Virus record (IMG/VR): IMGVR_UViG_3300042520_000217
Span: 1-36,765 of that record
DNA length: 36,765 bases
DNA from: a virus
Reading direction: 5' to 3' (one strand)
Below are positions 18,418-30,990 of the stretch, piece after piece (the stretch's first letter is position 1; the number at the start of each line of letters is the position of its first letter). Position numbers and translations under genes: made by a program. The notes under the pieces were generated by a model. The model did no database searches. It saw only the letters and a program-made list of their open reading frames with translations, and was not told where the DNA came from.

Positions 18418-19608
18418 TCATAGAAGATGACTAATATTCCGTCTAGTATCTTGACCACTCTCAAATCTATAATAGTGGAACAAGTATATACCTTTAGCGA
18501 TACCAATCCGTAGTCTGTGCTGCATTATCTTCTTGCAGAAATGGTAGTCAAAGAAATGGCCATTAATCTGAATGCCTCCTTCAGGAAAGCCTCCGACTAG
18601 CAACCATGTCTTTTTGCTAAACAGCATAAACAGGCCACCAATAATTTGGTTAAAGAACATCACATTACTTCCATGCTCGTTGTACAAGTCAACGGCAATC
18701 TTTCTATGGTTCATGATATCAGAATCATCTGACTTTTGTCCTCCCACAAGCTGATAGTGCAAACCTAGTCGATTTGTCATGCATCCAACTAGATCAAAGT
18801 CACCTCTCTGTGCTATCTCCTCGCATTGCTGATATATCTTCTCGTGATACATCGGTAGCGTATCAATGTCTCTAAGACAAATCCAATCATCGTCAGGCAG
18901 GCCCTCGATTATTGCGTTTATAGCCTTTCCAATATTCTTGTCAGACCTACCAGGAGTTATGTGGTGTACCTGAACACTCTTCCTTACCTCAACCTTTCCT
19001 TTATGCTTATTTATCGTAACAAAGGTTGCCATAACATTGTGTGGCTTGATATTCTCAGGGCTTAACATACACCAATGCATAGCATAGGGAAACGCTAACT
19101 CATCCCTACTTGTGTAGTTCTGAACTATGTGCCAAACACCATCCATAAGCCTATTCTGCAATGCATCTCGATTTGACCGCACAAAGAAGTTAGTCTCTAG
19201 CAATCCTGCCTTGTCCCTGTACCTACTCTCCAAGTAATACCTAAACTGCCTCTTGACCTGATCCTCGTTTACCTTTCCCTCGTTAACCAACTCCTTGGCT
19301 CTAGTGTACACATCTACATGGGCACGAGTCTTAAACCATATCGGGAAACTAGGTGGCTCATGAACAAACGAAATATTCGCATCAGCATAGCAGACCAAAT
19401 CGTATTCGCTTAGATACAAATGTGATAGAAGTTTGTATTTCCTAGACTCCTTCTGTCTATCTGTAATGCCATCCACCACTCGTATCTGCCATCCATCAAC
19501 ATTAAGCTCTGCATTATCGGTAAATAACACAAAGTCCCACCCCTCAAACTTAGGGGCAGGACTGACATCATCGTAGTCTCCGAACAAGACCGAATAAATT
19601 ACTTTCAT
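18418..19608 (-). CDS. Two-domain glycosyltransferase
   Basis: Taken from the ATG at 19608, which overlaps the previous stop as ATGA; the longer reading uses TTG. Of 396 residues, 1-210 resemble the DUF616/TOD1-type transferases (IYSVLFGDYDDVSPAP, FVLFTDN, YKLLSHLYL, LVCYADANIS with a D76-A-N motif). Residues 213-380 form a second GT-A-like domain with GRSDKNIGKAINAI, a DxD at D247-I-D249 and GGLFMLFSKKTWLLVGGFP. Two sugar-transfer sites in one protein could add a disaccharide. The target is unknown: the position among head genes suggests a virion protein, but the host envelope is possible. Confidence 0.75.
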   Translation of the reverse strand: MKVIYSVLFGDYDDVSPAPKFEGWDFVLFTDNAELNVDGWQIRVVDGITDRQKESRKYKLLSHLYLSEYDLVCYADANISFVHEPPSFPIWFKTRAHVDVYTRAKELVNEGKVNEDQVKRQFRYYLESRYRDKAGLLETNFFVRSNRDALQNRLMDGVWHIVQNYTSRDELAFPYAMHWCMLSPENIKPHNVMATFVTINKHKGKVEVRKSVQVHHITPGRSDKNIGKAINAIIEGLPDDDWICLRDIDTLPMYHEKIYQQCEEIAQRGDFDLVGCMTNRLGLHYQLVGGQKSDDSDIMNHRKIAVDLYNEHGSNVMFFNQIIGGLFMLFSKKTWLLVGGFPEGGIQINGHFFDYHFCKKIMQHRLRIGIAKGIYLFHYYRFESGQDTRRNISHLL

Positions 19609-20255
19609 CTTAAATTTCTCCAAGTTCTTTGCTCATAGAAGTTGTGATTGACATTTGAGCTTGCATATCCAAAGATACACTCATCCTTATCTGCCATAAT
19701 ACCTGGGAACTGCTCAGTCAAGTACCTGTCTAGCCTTAGCTTAACATTTTTTAGTCTAGCCTTAATTTTATCGGTAGCAAACCAATAGAACGACCCAGAG
19801 TAGTGAAACGGATACGGAACATACGGAGGGCATGGGAGTAGCTTAGCACAAACACCTGCAAACAACTTGTCTCCCAACACGGGTGGATCAGTCAAGTTCT
19901 TTCGATACAAATGATTTATCCAAATGTCCAATCCTGCCCATACAGGTCTAGTAACTCCCTTGCAATGTGCATAGAATGTCATGCCACCATCTATCTCTAC
20001 CAATGAGTCTAAGAAGTGAATACACTCCCCATACTTAGCATCGTTCTGCACTACTCGATAGTCACAATCTTTCGGCAGCATATCCACAATAGGTGCCAAA
20101 GAATAGTTGCCCTTTACGGCTATCTTAACTATCCTCTGACCATCAAACACATTCCAATACGCTTCCAAGAACTTTAAGTTCAAGACATGGTAATGGTTTA
20201 ATGTCCCATCGTAGTAAATGAAGTAGATTAAATTTTTTCTAGCATTAGAGTCCAT
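19605..20255 (-). CDS. Glycosyltransferase-like protein
   Basis: The 216-residue protein starts with a strand-helix unit KNLIYFIYYDGTLNHYHVLN and contains FYAHCKGVTRP (94-104) and PFHYSGSFYWFATD (149-162). These motifs recur in capsule-type and large-virus glycosyltransferase-like proteins. No classical DxD is evident, so catalytic activity is uncertain. It overlaps the methyltransferase by 28 bp and the next transferase by ATGA, so the three genes form one translationally coupled cassette. Confidence 0.6.
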   Translation of the reverse strand: MDSNARKNLIYFIYYDGTLNHYHVLNLKFLEAYWNVFDGQRIVKIAVKGNYSLAPIVDMLPKDCDYRVVQNDAKYGECIHFLDSLVEIDGGMTFYAHCKGVTRPVWAGLDIWINHLYRKNLTDPPVLGDKLFAGVCAKLLPCPPYVPYPFHYSGSFYWFATDKIKARLKNVKLRLDRYLTEQFPGIMADKDECIFGYASSNVNHNFYEQRTWRNLR

Positions 20256-22387: not shown

Positions 22388-23623
22388 TTACCTAAATAAT
22401 TTTCCTTTTATCAATACGAACCCATTACTTCGGTTCTTGACCATCAACTCAGTCAATCCCCATACCAACGCATCCACTCTATCAGGTGACTTCCCCTTAT
22501 CAGGATCAAAGGTAACCATCTGACTCTCTAACAACGGAAAGCTCCCTACATGGTACACCTGACCCTTCTCATACAACGAATACACAGGCTCCGCTCTCAC
22601 ATACTTACCCTTGGTAGCCGACACTAGCTTAATTCTCGTGGTTGTCCCCTGAGCCTTCAAAACAGCCTCCACCATGTCTCCACCCTGGTTCTTCTCTGCC
22701 ACAATACAATCCGCATTCCACCTAAACGCTGCATCGTTTGCAATCTTCGCCCAATGGTTCGGAGAATACTTCCCACTCAAATCCTCCAACACATACCCAA
22801 ACCCTTCCTTACACTTTCCAACCACAATAATACCCGTCTCATCACTATTCATGTTCGCAGTCACAGCAGGGTCAAGTGCAACCACAATCCTCTTCAAGTT
22901 CGGAGCTTCATCAACCCTCGCCTTTCCAATGATAGCCCTGTTCCACAACATACCTTCCGCATCATCCAACCAAGTGCCCATGAACAAGTGGTCATATCTA
23001 GCCCTATTCTCTCGCTTAGTCTTCTCCGCTGCCTGCACAAACGACTCACTCAGATTTATCTTATTATCCAAGTAAGTCGTGTGGATGTAAGTCGTATCCT
23101 TCCTCTTATTCTTTACAAAGTCCCTATATATCCAATGACTCTTGTACGATGGGTTCATTACCAATATCACCCTGTTATAGTTATCCTTTGCCCTGATACT
23201 CAAGTCCACCTTATCAAATATCTCAGGGTCTGTCAATTCCTCAGCCTCATCCACTACCCATGTCGACAACCCAGCAATTGACTTCAGATTTGCCGTGTTT
23301 ACTCCTGAGCTAGTTTTTATTCCACGAAATAGAATTTTAGAACCTGTTAGCTTATTTATAATCTCACTCTGAGTCACATCAAAGTCATTCATCTTACCCA
23401 TAATCTCAATCTTATCCAAGAACTCTGGAATAATCGAAATAAACGCAGATACCAAGGTGTATCTAGTGAAAAGAATCACATGGCCCTTCTCATAGGTCAA
23501 GTTCAACAGAAACAAAGCCAAGGTCCATGATTTACCACTTCCTCTACCACCCGTAATCAAATAGTACCTCGTGTCAGGCTGCTCGTAGAATAATGGCTTG
23601 TAATCGTCTAAAAGTTGAATCAT
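22388..23623 (-). CDS. Terminase large subunit
   Basis: Taken from the ATG at 23623, since the longer reading uses GTG inside a repeat, giving 411 residues. The ATPase domain has Walker A GGRGSGKS (25-32) and Walker B WVVDEAEEL (122-130). The nuclease domain has the acidic residue D251 in IVVALDPAV and the final SPDRVDALVWGL. It packages DNA into the prohead and cuts concatemers. It is separated from the small subunit by 147 bp that carry a tandem repeat. Confidence 0.95.
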   Translation of the reverse strand: MIQLLDDYKPLFYEQPDTRYYLITGGRGSGKSWTLALFLLNLTYEKGHVILFTRYTLVSAFISIIPEFLDKIEIMGKMNDFDVTQSEIINKLTGSKILFRGIKTSSGVNTANLKSIAGLSTWVVDEAEELTDPEIFDKVDLSIRAKDNYNRVILVMNPSYKSHWIYRDFVKNKRKDTTYIHTTYLDNKINLSESFVQAAEKTKRENRARYDHLFMGTWLDDAEGMLWNRAIIGKARVDEAPNLKRIVVALDPAVTANMNSDETGIIVVGKCKEGFGYVLEDLSGKYSPNHWAKIANDAAFRWNADCIVAEKNQGGDMVEAVLKAQGTTTRIKLVSATKGKYVRAEPVYSLYEKGQVYHVGSFPLLESQMVTFDPDKGKSPDRVDALVWGLTELMVKNRSNGFVLIKGKLFR

Positions 23624-23626
23624 AGC

Positions 23627-23768
23627 TAAATTAATTAATTGGGGATTTCCATTTTCCGTTTCATTCCTGTACACTCAGAAACATACCCCCCCATGGGTAA
23701 ATTAGTTAATTGGGGAAATCCACTTTCCAATCGGTTTCCATACACTCACGAACATACCTCCCCCAGGT
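23627..23768. repeat. Two imperfect 71-bp tandem repeats between terminase genes
   Basis: Two copies, from 23627 and from 23698, share TAAATTARTTAATTGGGG at one end, then ATCC/TTCC blocks, ACACTCAC/ACACTCAG and ACATACC with a C run. I judge about 75-80 percent identity by eye. CCCATGGG (23690-23697) is a palindrome at the junction. The region fills the gap between small and large terminase genes and could be a packaging (cos/pac) site, a TerS binding site or an operator. Confidence 0.75.
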
Positions 23769-23770
23769 GC

Positions 23771-24085
23771 TTATTCGTCTATGCGGGTAAGCGTTTCATC
23801 CTCAACTAGTTTGGCTTCTTGTATCTCAATAGTCTTGCTAATCCAATGAATGGGAGGGGCTACCTTTTCCCCATTACTAGTAATGTCTATTTGTTGCTTA
23901 GGCAAGCCAAGTCTATAGGATAGCCAAAGTTTCAAGGCTTGGGTATCCCCCTCCTCGCATTTTCGCAACAAGGCTTCCCATATCCTTTGAGGTACGGCTA
24001 TAGCATCCATCTGCTCAATGAGTTTAACCTCCATGATTTTTGGCTTTCTTCCCGCACCTTCCCTTGCACCTCCATTTTTCCCCAT
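23771..24085 (-). CDS. Terminase small subunit
   Basis: The 104-residue protein begins MGKNGGAREGAGRKPKIMEV, the AT-hook-like start of small terminases in many Bacteroidota phages. A helical middle follows (AIAVPQRIWEALLRKCEEGD, then ALKLWLSYRLGLPKQ). It binds the packaging site and hands DNA to the large subunit. It is the first gene of the leftward late unit. Two dyads lie directly upstream. Confidence 0.85.
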   Translation of the reverse strand: MGKNGGAREGAGRKPKIMEVKLIEQMDAIAVPQRIWEALLRKCEEGDTQALKLWLSYRLGLPKQQIDITSNGEKVAPPIHWISKTIEIQEAKLVEDETLTRIDE

Positions 24086-24089
24086 ATAC

Positions 24090-24131
24090 TTACAAAGTAT
24101 TGTAAAACTGAAATAAAGTGTTTATTCAGTT
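24090..24131. promoter_or_regulatory. Two adjacent dyads, likely operators of the divergent region
   Basis: TTACAA-AGTA-TTGTAA (24090-24105) is a perfect dyad. It abuts AACTGAA...TTCAGTT (24106-24131), a 7-bp inverted repeat that continues inward with TAAA/TTTA. They start 5 bp upstream of the terS ATG. A further dyad, TTGTA-TT-TACAA (24191-24202), lies in the spacer of the early promoter. Related half sites at both ends suggest one regulator switching early and late transcription. Confidence 0.55.
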
Positions 24132-24185
24132 CTAAAGGTAATTGAAAAAAATATACCAATTGATAAAAAATATTTACTTAAATAC

Positions 24186-24217
24186 TTGACTTGTATTTAC
24201 AAACCTTTGTACATTTG
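24186..24217 (+). promoter_or_regulatory. Main early promoter
   Basis: TTG at 24186-24188, 21 bp, then TACATTTG at 24210-24217, followed about 28 bp later by the first early ATG (24246). It matches the Bacteroidota type and shares CTTGACTTRTATTTA with the promoter at 9432. Confidence 0.75.
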
Positions 24218-24245
24218 CTTAACATTTAACCCTAACTAATTAAAT

Positions 24246-24332
24246 ATGACAGACTTACTAATTATCGGATGCGGAACTTTATTGATTTTCGCCTTGACCT
24301 ATGTTTTAACACCTAACCAAAAAACAGCATGA
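24246..24332 (+). CDS. 28-residue membrane microprotein, first early gene
   Basis: ATG 24246 to TGA 24330-24332, with a sequence starting MTDLLIIGCGTLLIFALTYV. A single membrane helix fills residues 3-21. It directly follows the early promoter and overlaps the next start as ATGA, which supports translation despite its size. Function unknown. Confidence 0.55.
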   Translation: MTDLLIIGCGTLLIFALTYVLTPNQKTA

Positions 24333-24430
24333 AAAAGACTTTGAAAGCCATTGGACTTGTAATTTATTTCATCGTGGCATTAATCCCGATTTTTATCCTT
24401 GGCTATATGTTAGGCCTTAAACTACTTTAA
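24329..24430 (+). CDS. 33-residue membrane microprotein
   Basis: ATG 24329 to TAA 24428-24430. The peptide begins MKKTLKAIGLVIYFIVALIP and is one hydrophobic helix with a basic N-terminus. The start overlaps the previous stop (ATGA) and the next gene begins 3 bp later. Function unknown; small early membrane peptides of phages often act on host envelope or exclusion, which is only a general analogy. Confidence 0.55.
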   Translation: MKKTLKAIGLVIYFIVALIPIFILGYMLGLKLL

Positions 24431-24433
24431 AGA

Positions 24434-24694
24434 ATGGAACTAGAACAGAATATGGAATGGCTAATGAAATGGTTTCCCGATGAAAACCACGCAAAAGGCT
24501 TTGAGTTGGCAAAGAAAACTCCTCATAGTAAAAGCACTTCGTACCATTCGGGCGGAGGTTTTACTCATTTGTTTTTGCACTTAATTGATGGCAGAGTAAT
24601 GGCCATTCACTTTATGGACTTTGAGGTTGAAACCTCAGAGAATACTTTTGATACCCTAGAAAATTATATTGATAAATGTTTTAACACCTACTAA
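24434..24694 (+). CDS. Hypothetical early protein
   Basis: The 86-residue soluble acidic protein contains MEWLMKWFPDENHAKGFEL and a beta stretch TSYHSGGGFTHLFLHLIDG, then VMAIHFMDFEVE. It lies third in the early unit, 3 bp after the membrane peptide. No family recognised. Confidence 0.7.
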   Translation: MELEQNMEWLMKWFPDENHAKGFELAKKTPHSKSTSYHSGGGFTHLFLHLIDGRVMAIHFMDFEVETSENTFDTLENYIDKCFNTY

Positions 24695-24695
24695 A

Positions 24696-24878
24696 ATGAT
24701 GATTTACACATTCACTATTTTCCAAAGAGACGAGTTTTGGGATTGGATTCCATCAACTGCAAAAATTGTAAAGGTAAGGAGGGCAAGGCTTTCATCAGCA
24801 CAAGACTACCTATATAGAAAATATCCTAAAACAAGAATAGAATTGTTAGACGCTGAATTATTAAAAAAAAATAAATAA
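24696..24878 (+). CDS. Hypothetical early protein, basic
   Basis: Start placed at the ATG at 24696 just after the previous stop (upstream in-frame start is TTG), giving 60 residues; the next codon is also ATG. FTIFQRDEFWDWIPSTAKIV is followed by a lysine/arginine-rich part. No family recognised. Confidence 0.65.
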   Translation: MMIYTFTIFQRDEFWDWIPSTAKIVKVRRARLSSAQDYLYRKYPKTRIELLDAELLKKNK

Positions 24879-24899
24879 ATAACTAAAACACTTATTAAC

Positions 24900-25175
24900 A
24901 TGAACAATCAGAAATCATTTGCCTATTGTGAGGCAGTCGGAAAATCAAAAGTTTGGGCAGCATATGCTGAGTACTTCGCTTGCGAAGAAATCCTTGAGGA
25001 AGATTTTAATCATAATTCGGGCTATGTTTATTTATACCTTGAAGGTGTAGCTATTGGGAGTTTACTTGGTGGAGATGTTGAATTCATAGTGTATAATGAA
25101 GAGACAGATGGGGAAATGTTTTTCGACACTTACCAAGAACTTGAACAACATTGGGAGTCTACTAAACAAGGTTAA
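24900..25175 (+). CDS. Hypothetical acidic early protein
   Basis: The 91-residue strongly acidic protein contains YAEYFACEEILEEDFNHNSG, then VYLYLEGVAIGSL and ELEQHWESTKQG. The charge pattern is reminiscent of DNA-mimic antirestriction proteins, but no ArdA motif is seen, so that remains an idea only. Its TAA stop (25173-25175) lies in the 5' strand of stem I of the hammerhead fold, so translation to the end should disrupt that fold. Confidence 0.7.
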   Translation: MNNQKSFAYCEAVGKSKVWAAYAEYFACEEILEEDFNHNSGYVYLYLEGVAIGSLLGGDVEFIVYNEETDGEMFFDTYQELEQHWESTKQG

Positions 25176-25231
25176 CCGATGAGACTTCAGTAGTCGAAAC
25201 AATTGGGGCGAAAGCCCCTTTTGTCTTAACC
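25170..25231 (+). ncRNA. Hammerhead ribozyme-like RNA (type I layout)
   Basis: Stem I pairs GGUUAA (25170-25175) with UUAACC (25226-25231). The core CCGAUGA (25176-25182) matches CUGAUGA except C for U at position 4. Stem II is GACU/AGUC (25183-25186 with 25192-25195) with loop UCAGU. GAAA follows (25196-25199). Stem III has A-U, C-G, A-U, A-U, a U-U internal loop and GGGGC/GCCCC capped by a GAAA tetraloop (25199-25224). The unpaired C25225 is the expected cleavage residue, after GU, so cleavage falls between 25225 and 25226. Stem III plus UUUU also looks like a weak terminator. Activity is uncertain because of the U4C change. Confidence 0.75.
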
Positions 25232-25247
25232 ATAAACAAGAAAAACA

Positions 25248-25679
25248 ATGGAAAAAAAATCAACAAAATTCCAAGAATTAGTCGGCACTCGTTTTCAAAT
25301 TGCAATAGGAAGTTCTCATATAATTGGAACTTGGACAGAAGAAAAACTCATTGAACAAATTAAAGGAGGTATTGTGCATTATCTCTACGATAGAGATTTT
25401 CACTACAATTGGACAAGATTGGAACAAGAGTATTATTCCATCTTCAAGGAAGAAACTTTGAATCCGATGATGAAAGACATTGACAATACCATAAATGATT
25501 TTTTTGCTTTTCAAAGGACTGCAATGGGTGAGGTCTTTGAGTTTAAATTAGAATGGAAAGAGTCTCAAAAAATAATAGATAAATGGTTTCAAGAAAATAA
25601 AACTATTTCTAAAGAATTGAAAAGGGATTACTACTCATATAGAAAAGAATATGCGGGTATTGATTTAGCCGTTTTTTAG
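25248..25679 (+). CDS. Hypothetical protein downstream of the ribozyme
   Basis: The 143-residue protein is rich in aromatic and charged residues (IVHYLYDRDFHYNWTRLEQE, then EFKLEWKESQKIIDKWFQEN) and mostly helical. Its ATG lies 22 bases downstream of the predicted ribozyme cleavage site, so cleavage would give its mRNA a short 5'-hydroxyl leader. No family recognised. It is the last gene before the first iteron region. Confidence 0.7.
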   Translation: MEKKSTKFQELVGTRFQIAIGSSHIIGTWTEEKLIEQIKGGIVHYLYDRDFHYNWTRLEQEYYSIFKEETLNPMMKDIDNTINDFFAFQRTAMGEVFEFKLEWKESQKIIDKWFQENKTISKELKRDYYSYRKEYAGIDLAVF

Positions 25680-26052
25680 ATCAATTTTTAGCCCTTTTTT
25701 AAGCCAATTTTAAGCCCATTTAAGACATTTAAAATTTTGCCTATGTAACACCACTCAAAAAAATATATCGTCTGACAAAGGACCTAAAAATGCCATCCTT
25801 TGCCTTTCTAGGTTGCAAGGTTGCCATGCCATGCCGAACCCCGAACGGACCCTAACGGGCACGGCCGACCCATACCCCATAGTGTAAAACATGGCGGATT
25901 GACCCATAGTGTAAAACATGGCGGAAAAATAGGGTTAGTGTAAAACAGAACCAGTTCGAACCGGTTCAGACCCATAGTGGAAAACAAAATCTCCTGGGGT
26001 GTTAGTGTAAAACAAAACCAATCAGCCCAGGATATTACCCTTAGTGTAAAAC
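25680..26052. repeat. Iteron cluster 1 in a gene-free stretch
   Basis: Six copies of TAGTGTAAAAC start at 25880, 25907, 25936, 25975 (TAGTGGAAAAC), 26003 and 26042, all in the same orientation, 27-39 bp apart. Between copies three and four lies an imperfect palindrome AACCAGTTCGAACCGGTT (25949-25966). Upstream, 25685-25730 holds three TTTTAAGCC-type repeats, and 25810-25870 is a GC-rich patch in an AT-rich genome. The stretch 25680-26134 has no convincing gene. It may be a replication origin or a regulatory array. Confidence 0.75.
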
Positions 26053-26074
26053 AAAAATAAATTTTATAATTCCC

Positions 26075-26106
26075 TTGCATTTAATGTGCAGCCTCTTGTA
26101 CCTTAG
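26075..26106 (+). promoter_or_regulatory. Promoter for the recombination/replication genes
   Basis: TTG 26075-26077, 21 bp, then TACCTTAG (26099-26106), one mismatch from TAnnTTTG. It lies about 29 bp upstream of the ATG at 26135 and directly after the last iteron, so iteron-bound protein could regulate it. Confidence 0.5.
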
Positions 26107-26134
26107 CATCATTAATCACTTAAACACAAACACA

Positions 26135-26374
26135 ATGTTAAAAGATCACCACTTTATTCTTGAGCAGTCAGGGTTTACCCTGGAGCTTGAATCCTTCTCT
26201 AACGAAGGCATTGTCCTAGACCTATTCTTTGGCAATGGGAAGTCCCTTACCCTAGAGTTGTACGATGACCTCAACGAGCGGTTTACAGACCACTATCGGG
26301 TTATCTGTGCCATCCTTGATCCTTTTATTGTTGAACAACTAGAAGCCAATGTAAGACAATGCTTTACGAAATGA
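26135..26374 (+). CDS. Hypothetical early protein
   Basis: Start placed at ATG 26135, as the longer reading begins with TTG inside the promoter, giving 79 residues. Two beta-rich halves are visible (HHFILEQSGFTLELESF and LFFGNGKSLTLELYD), followed by a helix. First gene after the iterons. No family recognised. Confidence 0.65.
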   Translation: MLKDHHFILEQSGFTLELESFSNEGIVLDLFFGNGKSLTLELYDDLNERFTDHYRVICAILDPFIVEQLEANVRQCFTK

Positions 26375-26547
26375 TGACTGCTACCGAGTACGGTGTACTA
26401 CGGGGCTTTACCGAAAAATCTACTAGAGTTCACCAGATTATCCGCTCAGGTGTATGGCCTGAAGAATGGGTGTATCCTCCTAAGAGATTAGGCAACCAAT
26501 GGGTTCTATTTGTATCAACTAACTGGATTAACAATGGTAGAGGATAG
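26371..26547 (+). CDS. Small winged-helix / excisionase-like DNA-binding protein
   Basis: ATG at 26371 overlaps the previous stop (ATGA), giving 58 residues. MTATEYGVLRGFTEKSTRVH followed by QIIRSGVWPE and KRLGNQWVLFVS follows the MerR/excisionase-like pattern of a helix-turn-helix plus a beta wing. Without an integrase, a transcription or replication control role is more likely than excision. Confidence 0.65.
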   Translation: MMTATEYGVLRGFTEKSTRVHQIIRSGVWPEEWVYPPKRLGNQWVLFVSTNWINNGRG

Positions 26548-26698
26548 AATCAAAGAATGGATACTAGAGAACTTTGGGGAAGTACCCCATAGTGAAAAAA
26601 TAGAGATTCTTAAAACCTTCGAGATGTATTGGGATGAGATTAGTTACCGATACGCAGAAATGAAAACACTAGAAAAATATAAACACTTAAAACGATGA
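26534..26698 (+). CDS. Hypothetical small helical protein
   Basis: Taken from ATG 26534 within the end of the previous gene (the longer reading starts with TTG), giving 54 residues starting MVEDRIKEWILENFGEVPHS. It overlaps the ERF gene by ATGA. No family recognised. Confidence 0.6.
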   Translation: MVEDRIKEWILENFGEVPHSEKIEILKTFEMYWDEISYRYAEMKTLEKYKHLKR

Positions 26699-27228
26699 AA
26701 GAACTAATTCTAATTCAAAACGAGCTTAAAGCTCCCAAAAGCCAATTCAACGCATTTGGCAAGTACAAGTACCGATCCGTAGAGGATATCCTAGAAGCGG
26801 TAAAGCCTTTGCTATTGAAGTATGAATGTACCTTGACTATTGAAGACGAGGTAAAAGAAGTAGGAGGTCTTGTCTTCATAGAAGCTACGGCTGCAATTCA
26901 GGTAGACAAAGAAGGCAGAACTGAAGGAAGAGCAGTAACTGCCCAGGCAGGCATCGACATCAACCGCAAGGGTATGGATGTTGCGCAGTCGTACGGAAGC
27001 TCATCGAGTTATGCTCGAAAATATGCATTGAATGGGCTCTTTTTAATTGACGATACAAAAGACCCTGACTCGACCAACGATCATGGTGGTAAAAAAGAGG
27101 AGTTAACTCCATCTCATGTTAAGTGGCAAGGAGCAAAGGATTCTTTAGCCAATGGCAAGGTGACCTTAGAGCAAATTAAGTCGGTTTATATTTTAACAGC
27201 ACAAAACGAAAAACTTCTATTATCATGA
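26695..27228 (+). CDS. erf: ERF-family single-strand annealing protein
   Basis: In this 177-residue protein the ERF core is clear: AFGKYKYRSVEDILEAVKPL (20-39) and GSSSSYARKYALNGLFLIDD (101-120). It anneals complementary single strands during recombination and genome circularisation. It is coupled by ATGA to the exonuclease gene, its functional partner. The C-terminal third is variable. Confidence 0.9.
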   Translation: MKELILIQNELKAPKSQFNAFGKYKYRSVEDILEAVKPLLLKYECTLTIEDEVKEVGGLVFIEATAAIQVDKEGRTEGRAVTAQAGIDINRKGMDVAQSYGSSSSYARKYALNGLFLIDDTKDPDSTNDHGGKKEELTPSHVKWQGAKDSLANGKVTLEQIKSVYILTAQNEKLLLS

Positions 27229-27824
27229 ACTTCAAATGCAGAGCAAGTGCCCTTGGTCAATTGATGACTAACGCACGGAGTAAAACAGAATCATTGTCTC
27301 AGACAACTAAAAGCTACCTAGAGGATTGGTACAAGGAGCAGATTTACGGAGTAAAGAAGCAGATTAAGAGCAAGTACATCCAAAAGGGATTGGCACTAGA
27401 AGATACGGCTATCGAGTTTTACTCGGTAGCTATGAATAAGGACTTCATGATAAAGAACCTTGACCACTTTGAAGATGATTTCTTCACAGGTACTCCCGAT
27501 TGTTTTCACGAGGGTATAGTCTATGACTTTAAAACCTCGTGGGACTGCTTTACTTTCCCTCTGTTTGACGATAGTCCCGACATGGGGTACTACTATCAAC
27601 TTCAGGTTTATATGCATCTGACAGGCTTAAAAAAGGCTAAGTTGGTTTACACCCTACAGGACACCCCAGAGTTCTTGACTTACGAGGAGCCCGTAAGCTA
27701 CTCCCATGTGGAAGACAAGTACCGTATCAAGGAGTTTGACATCGAGTATGACCCCCAGGTAATTGAGACGGCAAAGGCTAAGGTATTGGAGTGTAGAGAG
27801 TATTTAAAAGGAATGGCGGTATGA
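27225..27824 (+). CDS. Lambda Exo/YqaJ-like recombination exonuclease
   Basis: The 199-residue protein has the PD-(D/E)XK core: GTPDCFHEGIVYDFKTS (89-105) gives D92 and D101-x-K103 (Asp in place of Glu), and YYYQLQVYMHLTG (122-134) is the QxxxY helix. E59 in GLALED may be the first acidic ligand. It resects DNA ends to make 3' tails for the ERF protein encoded just upstream. ATGA overlaps flank it on both sides. Confidence 0.85.
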   Translation: MNFKCRASALGQLMTNARSKTESLSQTTKSYLEDWYKEQIYGVKKQIKSKYIQKGLALEDTAIEFYSVAMNKDFMIKNLDHFEDDFFTGTPDCFHEGIVYDFKTSWDCFTFPLFDDSPDMGYYYQLQVYMHLTGLKKAKLVYTLQDTPEFLTYEEPVSYSHVEDKYRIKEFDIEYDPQVIETAKAKVLECREYLKGMAV

Positions 27825-28030
27825 AAAAGCAGACGGCAGTAGAATGGTTGCATGAGCAACTAACTTCCACATGGTATGATGGAAAGTCTTCCAAGGAAGT
27901 ATTAGAGATAGCTAAGTACAAGGAGAGAGATCAGATTGCAGAGGCCCACAGAGAAGGTGCTTGGTTCTATGCAGTCAAGACCTATGAAAGCGGACAGAAT
28001 TACTATGAAGAAACCTACGGAGACAAATGA
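27821..28030 (+). CDS. Hypothetical small protein of Bacteroidota phage type
   Basis: 69 residues with KKQTAVEWLHEQLTSTWYDG, then KYKERDQIAEAHREGAWF. The QTAVEWL start and the ME/KERDQI helix recur in many small phage proteins of this host group, function unknown. Coupled by ATGA on both sides. Confidence 0.7.
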   Translation: MKKQTAVEWLHEQLTSTWYDGKSSKEVLEIAKYKERDQIAEAHREGAWFYAVKTYESGQNYYEETYGDK

Positions 28031-28473
28031 CATCACTAACTCAAGAACAGAAAGACGAGATAGCTAGACTATATAAACTTAAGGTATTAAACAAGAATAT
28101 AGCTACTATTATGAATATTAGTAAGCATCTAGTAAATAATTATATATACAAGGAGTATCTGTTGACCAATGAGAGAGCAAAGAACACTTGCTCTCACCTG
28201 AAGTCTGCGGATCAGGTACTTGAATTATATAAGAAAGGTGTACCATACAAAGAAATTATGTATAGTACTGGTGTAAAATACCATCACTTATGTGATATTC
28301 TCAAACTAACCGATGAGAGAAGAGTAAAGTCTCTTAGTATAAAAATAGTTAGACAAATAGAGCGTATGGTAGCGGAAAATTGGAGGACTTGCGACATCGC
28401 AAAAGAGCTGAATCTAGACTACAACAGAGTCTCACATTGGGTGAGAAAAGCCAAGAAGGAGGGTGTACACTAG
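28027..28473 (+). CDS. Triple helix-turn-helix protein, candidate iteron binder
   Basis: The 148-residue basic protein carries three successive homeodomain-like HTH units: about 8-42 (QEQKDEIARLYKLKVLNKNI), 61-94 (ADQVLELYKKGVPYKEIMYS) and 105-142 (IERMVAENWRTCDIAKELNL). Three units could read extended or repeated DNA. Its stop codon falls directly in the second iteron cluster (28463-28732), so binding there to control the primase gene or replication start is a reasonable inference. It has no nuclease or transposase residues that I can see. Confidence 0.75.
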   Translation: MTSLTQEQKDEIARLYKLKVLNKNIATIMNISKHLVNNYIYKEYLLTNERAKNTCSHLKSADQVLELYKKGVPYKEIMYSTGVKYHHLCDILKLTDERRVKSLSIKIVRQIERMVAENWRTCDIAKELNLDYNRVSHWVRKAKKEGVH

Positions 28474-28782
28474 TTTACACTAAGTGTACACCTAAGTGTA
28501 AACCAAAATCGGCCTCCATTGGCTCCAATCGCAATAAGTGAACACTTTGAACACTTTTTGGCAAAAATGAAAAAAAATAAATTTTCACCTAGTCAAAAAA
28601 AATATATTCTAAAAAAAAGTGTAAACTTGTAAACCTAGGGCAAAAAACGGCCTAAAATCTGCGAATCTAGACAGTATAGGGGGTTTTGGGGGGTTTACAC
28701 TAGGTGTAAACCAAGTGTAAACTTGTGTACACTTTTTTGCCCAAAAATGCCATTTTTCTATAAACCTTTGTAAAACACGAAA
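28463..28782. repeat. Iteron cluster 2 and probable replication origin
   Basis: At least nine AGTGTAAAC-type sites occur in both orientations: 28463, 28473, 28484, 28495, 28537 (AGTGAACACT), 28618, 28693, 28703, 28714 and 28725. 28692-28712 is a perfect 21-bp palindrome, GGTTTACAC-TAG-GTGTAAACC. The middle (28565-28620) is almost pure A/T, suited to strand opening, and 28679-28694 holds G runs. The 309-bp stretch before the primase gene has no gene. The core AGTGTAAA is the same as in cluster 1. Confidence 0.75.
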
Positions 28783-30990
28783 ATGAATGTAACGCTAGGA
28801 AGAGCAATCAATTTACTGAACTCAGGGTTCAGCGTAATGCCCATATCGGAGGGTAAAAAGCCTCTGATTTTATGGAAGGAGTACCAGACAAAAAAGATAG
28901 AAAAGTCAGAATTAGAGAAGCTCGAATCCAAGACAAAAGGGTATGGTATTATAACAGGTTATTATAATGTTGAGTGTATAGATGTAGATTTAAAGGTATT
29001 CCCTACTATCCAAGATGGAAAGAAGTTCTGGAGTGAGTTTGTGTCCTTTATATCTGATCATATTGATGACTTTAATAGAAAGTTTGTTATATATAAGACT
29101 ATAAACTCAGGTTATCATATTATATATAGATGCTCTAAAGTTGAGGGCAACAGAAAGCTTGCAACACTCAAGGGTCATTCTCAAGCCTTAATTGAAACTA
29201 GGGGTACAGGAGGATATATATATATCTATGACAACCAAGTATCGGAGATGTCTTATGAGCAAATCCAGGATATTACAGAGGAGGAGAGAGACATTCTGTT
29301 TAGCCTATGCAGATACTTCCACTACGATGAAGCCAAGGTGGAAGTCAAGGTGGAAAATACAGAGTATAGCGGATTGACCCCTTGGGAGGATTATAATCAG
29401 AGAAACAAGGTCTTGGACTTGATTGCAAATGAGTTTACCGCAGTTAAGCACTTGACCGACCGAATAGTTATAAGAAAAACTAATTCTAAGGATGCCTTGC
29501 ATGGATTTATATACAAGGATACTGGACTGTGTTATCTCTTCACCACGGCCACAATTTACCCTCATGAGAGCCCTTTGACTCCGTTTAGTATCTATGCTTA
29601 CAAGTACTTTAATGGGGACTATTCTGCTGCTGCTAAGGAACTCTATAAGGAAGGCTATGGAGAGCGGAAAATTAGAAAGGTAGAGATTGAGAAGATTGAG
29701 ATCCCCAAAGAAGATTTGATATTTCCGATTGATGTGTTTCCAGAGTCAATACAGAGTTATATTCTGTTAAATCAGAAAACACTTAATCATTCTATTGACT
29801 ACATGGGGTGTAGCTTACTTTGGCTTCTGTCACTATGCATTGGTAACGCTTGCAAGGTGGAGGTAAAAACAGGATGGAGAGAGTCTTGCAACATTTGGAT
29901 TGGCTTGATAGGTAAGGCAGGACTTGGAAAGACTCCTAGTATAAATGCCATCATCTTCCCGATTGCTAAGAAGAATAGTTTTGAGATTAAGCACTTTCAG
30001 AACGAGTACAAGAAGTACAAGGAATACGAGAAGCTTACTGCAAAGGAAAAGAAGGATGTCGAAGAAGTTAGGGAGCCTGTTAGAAAGCAGTTAATAGTAA
30101 ATGATATTACTGTTGAAGCCTTGGCGGATTTGCACGAGGAAAACCAGGTAGGCATAGCTGTATTTAAGGATGAGCTAAACGGATGGATTAAAGACATGAA
30201 CAAGTATAAGCCTGGTTCTGATCTTGAGTTTTGGTTGTCTTGTTGGTCTAACCAAGCAGCGATTCTTACACGGAAGACTGCCAAGAGTAGCTTTGTGGCA
30301 AGTCCATTGATTCCTGTGCTTGGTGGTATTCAGCCTGGTATATTCTCTCAGATATCCACAATGGAAAACAAAGACAATGGATTCCTAGATAGATTGCTTG
30401 TGAGCTACCCTGATAAGGAGATTGAGCATTATAACAAGAACTCGATTGACCAAGAGATATTAGATTGGTACGAGGCTTACATTAGTCAGTTCTATAACCT
30501 AGTGAGAAACCAGGTTTTGCAGTACAATAAGTTTGGAGAGATTGAGAGTAGGATTATTCGATTTGATAGCCAAGCAGATATTGAGTGGGAACGGATATTT
30601 AATAACATAACGGATTTGCAGAACTCTGATGACATCTCAGAATATGTAAAGTCGATGTTAAGTAAGCAGAAGGCTTATGTTCCTAGATTTGCTATGCTAA
30701 TAAATACCTTGACTTCTTTTGAGACAGGCAAGGACTTTGACTTTGTTACTAAGGAATCCTTGCTAAAGGCAGAGAAGTTAAGTAACTACTTTATTGCGAT
30801 GTCTAAGAAGATTAAGGTCAGTAGCTTAGAGTCTAATGAGCTTAGTGAGATTATTCGTTCGATGAAGAATGAGTCCATAGAAAAGAAAATCGAGATGATT
30901 AATAAGACCATTCCTGATTTTAACCGCTCTGAGTTAGCAGAGTTACTGAATGTTAGTAGAACCACTATTTATAAACACTTAAAGAAATGA
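28783..30990 (+). CDS. Prim-pol primase with DUF3987 helicase-like domain
   Basis: The 735-residue protein has three parts. Residues 1-165 form a prim-pol (AEP) domain: GFSVMPISEGKKPLILW, the acidic pair in ECIDVDLKVF, SGYHIIYR and ETRGTGGYIYI. Residues about 320-600 form a DUF3987 ATPase with Walker A GLIGKAGLGKTPS (about 373-385) and VFKDELNGW. The C-terminal 25 residues, ELAELLNVSRTTIYKHLKK, form a small HTH. It primes and unwinds DNA at the origin. No phage polymerase is seen, so the host replicase is needed. Confidence 0.85.
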   Translation: MNVTLGRAINLLNSGFSVMPISEGKKPLILWKEYQTKKIEKSELEKLESKTKGYGIITGYYNVECIDVDLKVFPTIQDGKKFWSEFVSFISDHIDDFNRKFVIYKTINSGYHIIYRCSKVEGNRKLATLKGHSQALIETRGTGGYIYIYDNQVSEMSYEQIQDITEEERDILFSLCRYFHYDEAKVEVKVENTEYSGLTPWEDYNQRNKVLDLIANEFTAVKHLTDRIVIRKTNSKDALHGFIYKDTGLCYLFTTATIYPHESPLTPFSIYAYKYFNGDYSAAAKELYKEGYGERKIRKVEIEKIEIPKEDLIFPIDVFPESIQSYILLNQKTLNHSIDYMGCSLLWLLSLCIGNACKVEVKTGWRESCNIWIGLIGKAGLGKTPSINAIIFPIAKKNSFEIKHFQNEYKKYKEYEKLTAKEKKDVEEVREPVRKQLIVNDITVEALADLHEENQVGIAVFKDELNGWIKDMNKYKPGSDLEFWLSCWSNQAAILTRKTAKSSFVASPLIPVLGGIQPGIFSQISTMENKDNGFLDRLLVSYPDKEIEHYNKNSIDQEILDWYEAYISQFYNLVRNQVLQYNKFGEIESRIIRFDSQADIEWERIFNNITDLQNSDDISEYVKSMLSKQKAYVPRFAMLINTLTSFETGKDFDFVTKESLLKAEKLSNYFIAMSKKIKVSSLESNELSEIIRSMKNESIEKKIEMINKTIPDFNRSELAELLNVSRTTIYKHLKK

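Follow-up and report, generated by a model that had tools for sequence, protein, structure and literature searches.

What is the element at positions 25170 to 25231, between two genes of this virus, and what would it do to the message that carries it? The window, that is, the whole stretch of DNA analysed here, is an entire IMG/VR virus record of 36,765 bases, and the element is read on its + strand. The original prediction took it for a type I hammerhead ribozyme. Every part that it described is present, in place and on the + strand, and the parts are listed here with the genes on either side.

24900–25175, +: upstream ORF, 91 aa, TAA stop at 25173–25175
25170–25175, +: stem I 5' strand, GGUUAA, containing the UAA stop of the upstream ORF
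25176–25182, +: catalytic core CCGAUGA (canonical CUGANGA), with C4 at 25177
25183–25195, +: stem II, GACU/AGUC (strands 25183–25186 and 25192–25195), loop UCAGU
25196–25198, +: core G12, A13 and A14, invariant in 13 alignment rows
25199–25224, +: stem III, with A15.1-U16.1, C-G, A-U, A-U, a UU/UU mismatch, GGGGC/GCCCC and a GAAA loop
25225, +: C17; cleavage predicted 3' of it, from its position in the fold
25226–25231, +: stem I 3' strand, UUAACC; the downstream cleavage product would begin here
25232–25247, +: A-rich leader of 16 nt, from the end of the hammerhead to the next ATG
25248–25679, +: downstream ORF, 143 aa, weak match to phrog_21512 (E 0.0028), function unknown

The three stems stand in type I order and open at stem I, both in the predicted fold and in a covariance model described below. 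As had been noted, the C at 25177 in place of U4 is the sole departure from the hammerhead core consensus (C3 to A9, G12 to A14, A15.1-U16.1 and H17), all other core positions being canonical, and the stop codon of the 91-aa ORF does lie inside stem I. C17 at 25225 is presumably the cleavage site, by the rules that hold for hammerheads. Stem III begins with A15.1 at 25199, and on its 3' side the GC part is followed by a U-rich stretch, in the manner of an intrinsic terminator.

For the segment 25165–25240, the minimum free energy structure and the centroid were both the type I hammerhead fold, at −22.3 kcal/mol (z −4.18). Shuffled versions of the segment had a mean of −12.1 kcal/mol (sd 2.4), and none of 200 was equally stable. 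A descriptor search of 200 dinucleotide shuffles of the window, on both strands, returned four looser hits and none as good, where as good means at least 6, 4 and 4 pairs in stems I, II and III. This bears out the claim that a match by chance is very unlikely.

Rfam, which had been proposed as a check, gave a negative answer: the window has no hit at gathering cut-offs. A profile search of the record with RAGATH-1-hammerhead (RF03152) produced none at E 0.001, and 14 control genomes likewise gave none. When 25100–25300 was searched at E up to 10, four Rfam matches appeared, the best being to RAGATH-1-hammerhead with 23.9 bits against a curated cut-off of 56.3 bits (E 0.04). The element shares the type I topology with this family and fails its cut-off; the window is a poor fit to the additional 5' hairpin of that model. 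For Hammerhead_1 (RF00163), with which it has the type I topology and the core in common, no hit was reported in the window up to E 10, and the curated cut-off is failed here too. A RAGATH-17 match across stem III and the start of the next gene reached 22.3 of 102.3 bits and was discarded.

Eight further phage loci also gave no Rfam hits at curated cut-offs. Five of them (L030, L040, L107, L109 and L117) carry three to five canonical U4 copies each, and the remaining three carry C4 copies. At locus L246, canonical copies score 22.7 of 34 bits with Hammerhead_1 or 26.5 of 48.5 bits with Hammerhead_3. Since canonical relatives fail Rfam as well, its silence concerns the compact form of these hammerheads and is no argument against the window. 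Given the misses at eight loci, annotation pipelines may overlook compact hammerheads.

A covariance model, R1, was made from 73 other phage hammerheads, six of them C4 and none with the UUUUGUC stem III of the window's clade. With filters off, R1 gave the window element 52.1 bits (E 2.7e-12), which supports the prediction. A second hammerhead of the compact form was not found in the window, where the next-best R1 score was 9.3 bits.

Close relatives of the element were collected in two ways. A search via the upstream protein yielded 12 loci; 11 of them (L008 to L018) have the element, and at L019 the contig ends just past the gene. C4 and the UUUUGUC run are common to all 11, the core being intact apart from C4; in one (L016) the first stem II pair is gone. 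A 3'-half pattern, TTTTGTCTTNACCATAAA, matched 35 viral stretches, 36 with the window. The element is present in 20, and the 16 others, which hold nothing that resembles it, were set aside as unrelated. Part of the constancy of the clade is built in, since the pattern fixes the U run, U16.1, C17 and the 3' strand of stem I save one base, and the filter required the core motif. The 20 stretches reduce to 13 distinct sequences, 11 C4 and two U4. The two U4 sequences (four contigs) have A.A at 10.1-11.1, the first pair of stem II, and on these contigs the core UGA terminates another gene, of 173 aa. Among the C4 sequences, L272, from the same contig as L016, is broken at this pair too. Every one of the 13 has at least one non-canonical feature in the core or in stem II, and none is fully canonical. 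R1 scores were 48.7–53.2 bits for the C4 members except L272, 39.2 bits for L272 and about 33 bits for the U4 members. Across the 11 upstream-protein loci and the 13 distinct sequences, C3, G5, A6, G8, A9, G12–A14, A15.1, U16.1 and C17 are invariant; position 7, stem II, loop II and the distal part of stem III vary.

The search of relatives for compensatory changes, another check that had been proposed, revealed paired changes in stems II and III. In alignment A2 (13 rows, 12 distinct, all C4), an A-U pair of stem II is replaced by G-C on both sides in five of the 12 distinct rows; one pair of stem III is changed on both sides in five and another in one. Pairing fails at the first stem II pair in one row and at the fourth stem III pair in four. 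The shuffle controls were mixed: 11 cells were changed on both sides versus 4.1 in shuffles (0 of 500 as high), and three pairs were changed on both sides versus 1.8 in shuffles (26 of 500 as high). Pairing counts from another alignment, A1, are circular, its rows having been picked for pairing, and were not used as proof.

Within the clade, the element is joined to three upstream gene families (20 contigs) and to six downstream families (19 contigs; on contig L166 no downstream ORF was found). The 91-aa ORF, for which PHROGs gave no match, belongs to a family that lies upstream of the element in 15 of the 20 contigs, the window included. The 143-aa ORF represents one of the six downstream families, and this gene is also present without the element at loci L005 and L006.

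Viral contigs were then scanned with a 5'-half pattern, CYGANGAGNCTNNNNNAGNCGAAAC, which allows either letter at position 4 and demands no pairing in stems I and III. At least 120 stretches were found. Among the stretches listed there were 132 matches, of which 120 have a complete stem III, cleavage site and stem I (114 U4 and 6 C4) and 12 are incomplete, one of these being cut off at a contig end. In the unique hammerheads from the viral loci collected, stem I is exactly 6 bp long in 169 of 175 and takes many sequences at this constant length. It is preceded by A in 168 of 174 and followed by A in 163 of 175, and its outer pair is G-C in 156 of 174; stem II usually has 4 bp. Pairing and the length of stem II are partly built in, since the finder accepts no fewer than 4 pairs in stem I or 3 in the other stems and part of stem II is set by the scan pattern; the 6-bp length and the flanks of stem I are not imposed in this way. 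The A flanks of stem I, together with loops that mostly run from U to U, hint that stem I may touch loop II. Among known hammerheads are minimal ones with a single tertiary contact.

R1 found an element in 41 of 42 chosen long records behind scan loci, as is expected from the way the records were found, and at least two copies in 23; in the exception, behind L060, the pattern match is not a hammerhead. One record (G015, 32,467 bases) has ten type I hammerheads within about 5 kb (L242:2808-7574), which separate small genes, often one per interval and sometimes two or more. This array would be a good system in which to test gene-by-gene cutting, if the phage could be grown.

Blast searches with two family members listed Pelagibacter phages, Flavobacterium phages and one other record. 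With R1, one copy each was detected in the Pelagibacter phages HTVC019P and Jormungand EXVC012P and in Flavobacterium phage elemoA_7-9A, and no hit was obtained in Cellulophaga phage phi38:1. Members thus occur in named phages with recorded hosts, which makes a direct test possible. With 76 nt from the window as the query, named phages gave 558 records up to E 10, none of which covers 80% of it, and E was at least 0.6 in the best 30 of the 558. Plasmids searched with one family member gave no match. In elemoA_7-9A, a 108-base CDS annotated on the reverse strand (gp68, L247:2968-3075) covers the hammerhead; it may be an over-predicted CDS.

Taken together, the fold, the covariance model from other phages, the paired changes in stems II and III and the similar elements in phages support the identification of the window element as a type I hammerhead ribozyme, predicted to be self-cleaving.

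Where these elements lie relative to genes was determined, with same-strand ORFs of at least 45 aa, for the 186 unique hammerheads that have 200 nt or more of sequence on either side. An ORF ends within −120 to +30 nt of stem I in 174 of them. In 138 of the 186, the upstream stop falls between −10 and +6 relative to stem I, as against 5.4% at random same-strand places on the same contigs and 10 of 186 on the reverse strand at identical sites. An ORF start at ATG follows within 80 nt in 167, mostly 12–27 nt past stem I. Both together, upstream stop and downstream ATG, were seen in 159 of 186 (random places 14.1%; reverse strand 3 of 186). Under a slightly different ORF rule from that of the 138 of 186, 64 stop codons precede stem I, 24 straddle its start, 31 lie inside it, 31 coincide with core U4-G5-A6 and one with core positions 7–9, and 23 lie at stem II or beyond; in 12 cases none was found. 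Leaders of 8–30 nt (131 cases) contain 55% A versus 29% in bulk, and 62 of them have a Shine-Dalgarno-like motif; none was found in the 16-nt leader of the window. This placement suggests that compact phage hammerheads are candidate mRNA-processing sites. The support for the processing role originally proposed for the window element is positional and comes from these stop/start junctions.

A C4-only pattern matched 37 viral stretches, 31 of them full hammerheads. In bacterial and archaeal genomes, 43 stretches matched, of which three pass a relaxed descriptor and two are supported by R1. The notion that C4 hammerheads occur only in phages was rejected, two matches in Albitalea terrae scoring 40.8 and 41.8 bits with R1. 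R1 did not detect the third stretch to pass the relaxed descriptor, L171, even at E 1; L204 once gave 26.2 bits (E 0.0005) and was absent at E 0.001 in a whole-genome search. The A. terrae genome has three R1 matches at E ≤ 0.001; the two best (L183:3725-3786 and L199:5548-5600) are C4 and have their stem II sequence in common. Nor is C4 bound to the stem I strand GGUUAA: it was also found with GUCAAA, GGCUAA, CUAGCA, GGUUAG, GCCUAA, GUUAUC and GGUAAA. Because it occurs with several stem I sequences, C4 probably arose more than once.

In a folding prediction, replacement of C by U at 25177 gave a slightly better misfold (−22.9 kcal/mol, ensemble frequency 0.27), with core ACUGA paired to the stem II loop UCAGU. 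Loops of this sequence are enriched in C4 hammerheads, 7 of 22 versus 5 of 157 U4 (P 9e-5), or 3 of 11 versus 4 of 114 when representatives only are counted (P 0.015); these counts omit 12 of 191 unique copies that lack a 13-nt stem II block, and they come from an uneven sample in which C4 was sought deliberately. Between similar natural copies, predicted stem II formation was 0.66 for L136 (U4) and 0.99 for L167 (C4). As a full explanation of C4, loop II is not supported, most C4 copies carrying other loops. The U4 copies with UCAGU at L081 and L131 are predicted to fold well and the C4 copy at L146 poorly, and mean predicted folding is nearly equal for C4 and U4. C4 may to some extent keep the core from mispairing with loop II, which is a partial explanation at best.

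The viroid hammerhead U4C was reportedly the subject of Ambros and Flores in 1998. According to the available text of PMC3088659, this same natural core change makes the viroid ribozyme much less active in vitro yet permits infection, and is active enough in vivo. Its context is viroid replication, whereas that of the window is a gene junction of a DNA phage. U4C being, as far as these sources go, a known active natural variant, the C4 of the window counts as a departure from the consensus and not as proof of exclusion. In the accessible part of a study in which phage MS2 was selected against a ribozyme, inactivating mutations are reported without changes at U4 (PMC4075628), and in that of a survey of one hammerhead, mutations of the CUGA turn led to low activity (PMC9901934). 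A natural C4 branch tests how far the hammerhead core can drift, and why.

What, then, does the element do? We read it as a cis-acting, self-cleaving type I hammerhead that serves as punctuation between two co-directional phage genes, and put the probability of this reading at about 70%. It is built on the sequence, fold and homology of the element, on paired changes and on its position at a junction. From these we infer cleavage in the cell, its timing and its benefit. On the transcript, stems I–III would fold round the core and the RNA would be cut after C25225. By known hammerhead chemistry, that cut would leave an upstream mRNA whose last part is the stem II/stem III domain, terminated by a 2',3'-cyclic phosphate, and a downstream mRNA that starts with 5'-OH UUAACC and the short A-rich leader, its AUG 22 nt on. 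A ribosome at the UAA would be expected to cover stem I together with some of the core. Since stem I includes the upstream stop codon, the terminating ribosome would have to leave before the ribozyme folds; by this geometry, folding would be delayed until then and the cut would follow translation of the upstream gene. Such stop-codon gating fits the stop position across the family. C4 would probably slow the chemistry and lessen pairing of the core with the UCAGU loop, and the window ribozyme would probably cut more slowly than a canonical one. The benefit would be separate mRNAs with uniform ends and free gene swapping at the junction. Counted against this reading are the single copy in the window, by which the phage as a whole would not be cut gene by gene by compact hammerheads, and the considerable loss of in vitro activity with C4, according to the available text of PMC3088659.

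The main rival takes the element for the relic of a hammerhead that has been retained for its use as an intrinsic terminator: stem III would end upstream transcription, and catalysis would be lost or marginal. Transcription could stop at the UUUU run, with stem I still incomplete. The hairpin at 25205–25218, followed by TTTTGTCTTA, has the GC-rich stem and U run by which intrinsic terminators are recognized. If transcription did end there, no cut would be needed; cleavage would be left to read-through RNA, and by either event the upstream mRNA would acquire almost the same 3' end. The original remark that stem III with its UUUU looks like a terminator holds for the clade, where UUUUGUC follows a C-rich strand in all 11 upstream-protein loci, and fails for the family as a whole, in which only 13 of 191 unique hammerheads have the run; few hammerheads carry it, those of this clade among them, and this counts for the relic. 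The lack of a fully canonical member among 13 distinct sequences is also what a decaying ribozyme would show. However, stem I, the core, the GAAA and C17 are of no use to a terminator and are nonetheless kept in 11 loci, and also beside neighbours that change, stem II pairing has been maintained through a two-sided change, and terminator-like sites in 23500–29000 are only moderately above shuffles (8 versus 4.4, sd 1.9). We consider the relic unlikely, at something like one chance in a handful, and still prefer self-cleavage.

The element could also be kept mainly as a recombination linker, a conserved stop/leader sequence for the exchange of single-gene cassettes, as one clade joins three upstream families to six downstream ones and the downstream gene occurs without the element at two loci. 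This leaves unexplained why stem I across the family has many sequences and yet 6 bp and A flanks, and why the clade has paired changes, and we hold it to be rather improbable. More improbable still is that same-genome copies with identical stem I exchange strands, the pieces being rejoined or circularised. With duplicates removed, stem I was identical in 16 of 115 same-genome copy pairs from 26 multi-copy genomes (3.6 expected; 4 of 5000 shuffles as high), whereas stem II showed no excess identity (17 of 115 versus 17.6 expected). The start of stem III, however, is also identical more often than expected (8 of 115 versus 1.2; 1 of 5000 as high), duplication would give the same picture, and the identity may reflect the descent of copies. 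A strict rule of within-genome stem I identity was discarded: an identical pair occurs in only 9 of the 26 genomes and is lacking in 17. The window has a single copy, and ligation products were sought in 2011 and not detected, by the available text of PMC3088659. A chance fold without function can practically be dismissed, for although the Rfam score is under every curated cut-off, the shuffles, the R1 score, the paired changes, the junction position and the relatives all contradict it.

Going from the window to a broad phage group, the punctuation reading becomes tentative, with the odds on the other side: compact hammerheads, each carrying or abutting the stop of the preceding gene and setting the leader of the next, would punctuate genes by a stop-gated cut and make single-gene cassettes self-separating, C4 and the terminator-like stem III tuning the window's clade to a slow cut that depends on read-through. 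In engineered insulators such as RiboJ, a hammerhead cuts shortly before the start of a gene, whose leader is thereby made uniform. RiboJ is synthetic, whereas the window element is natural and has the upstream stop codon inside its stem I.

Hammerheads that flank genes in phages and prophages were described in 2011, when the cutting of long transcripts was proposed (Perreault et al. 2011, PMC3088659). In the available text of that paper, three clustered bacterial arrangements cleave in vitro, the Agrobacterium one also in E. coli. The tested core variants mentioned there include none at position 4, and core mutants were dropped from the final alignments. As far as that text goes, the present hammerheads are like its phage set in the core, the intergenic phage position, the several copies round single genes or short blocks and the proposed processing; they are unlike it in C4, in a stem I of 6 bp flanked by one A on each side, in a stop codon that lies within the 5' part or adjoins it, and in the position statistics. 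In the literature searched, which mostly excluded subscription papers and is weak evidence of absence, no description was found of the 6-bp stop/start-junction form or of natural C4 phage hammerheads. Gene-flanking phage hammerheads are thus already known, and C4 and the compact 6-bp form at stop/start junctions are, on that weak evidence, apparently new. The roles of prokaryotic hammerheads are an open question of the field, according to the available part of a review (PMC6155905). The family matters for its near-fixed architecture and its preferred stop/start place, and for being missed by Rfam cut-offs in the window and eight loci. The compact design recurs in nearly two hundred related phage sequences, mostly at comparable places, which suggests that these phages may divide long messages into shorter ones by self-cutting RNA.

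Three further features of the virus were recorded. The primase/helicase protein matched 32 records, with two faecal phages best, then Cellulophaga phages, and Arthrobacter phages lower; the terminase matched 1424 records from many hosts, a Bacteroides phage being among the lowest E-values listed. These protein matches and the A-rich leader point weakly to a host in the Bacteroidota. On the + strand, 25876–26060 holds six TAGTGTAAAACA-like repeats, one of them mismatched, between two early gene blocks; they look like origin iterons or binding sites of a regulator. On the − strand, a glycosyltransferase gene (18421–19623, phrog_26101) lies in the head gene block, where it adjoins the head maturation protease gene, with the portal gene near.
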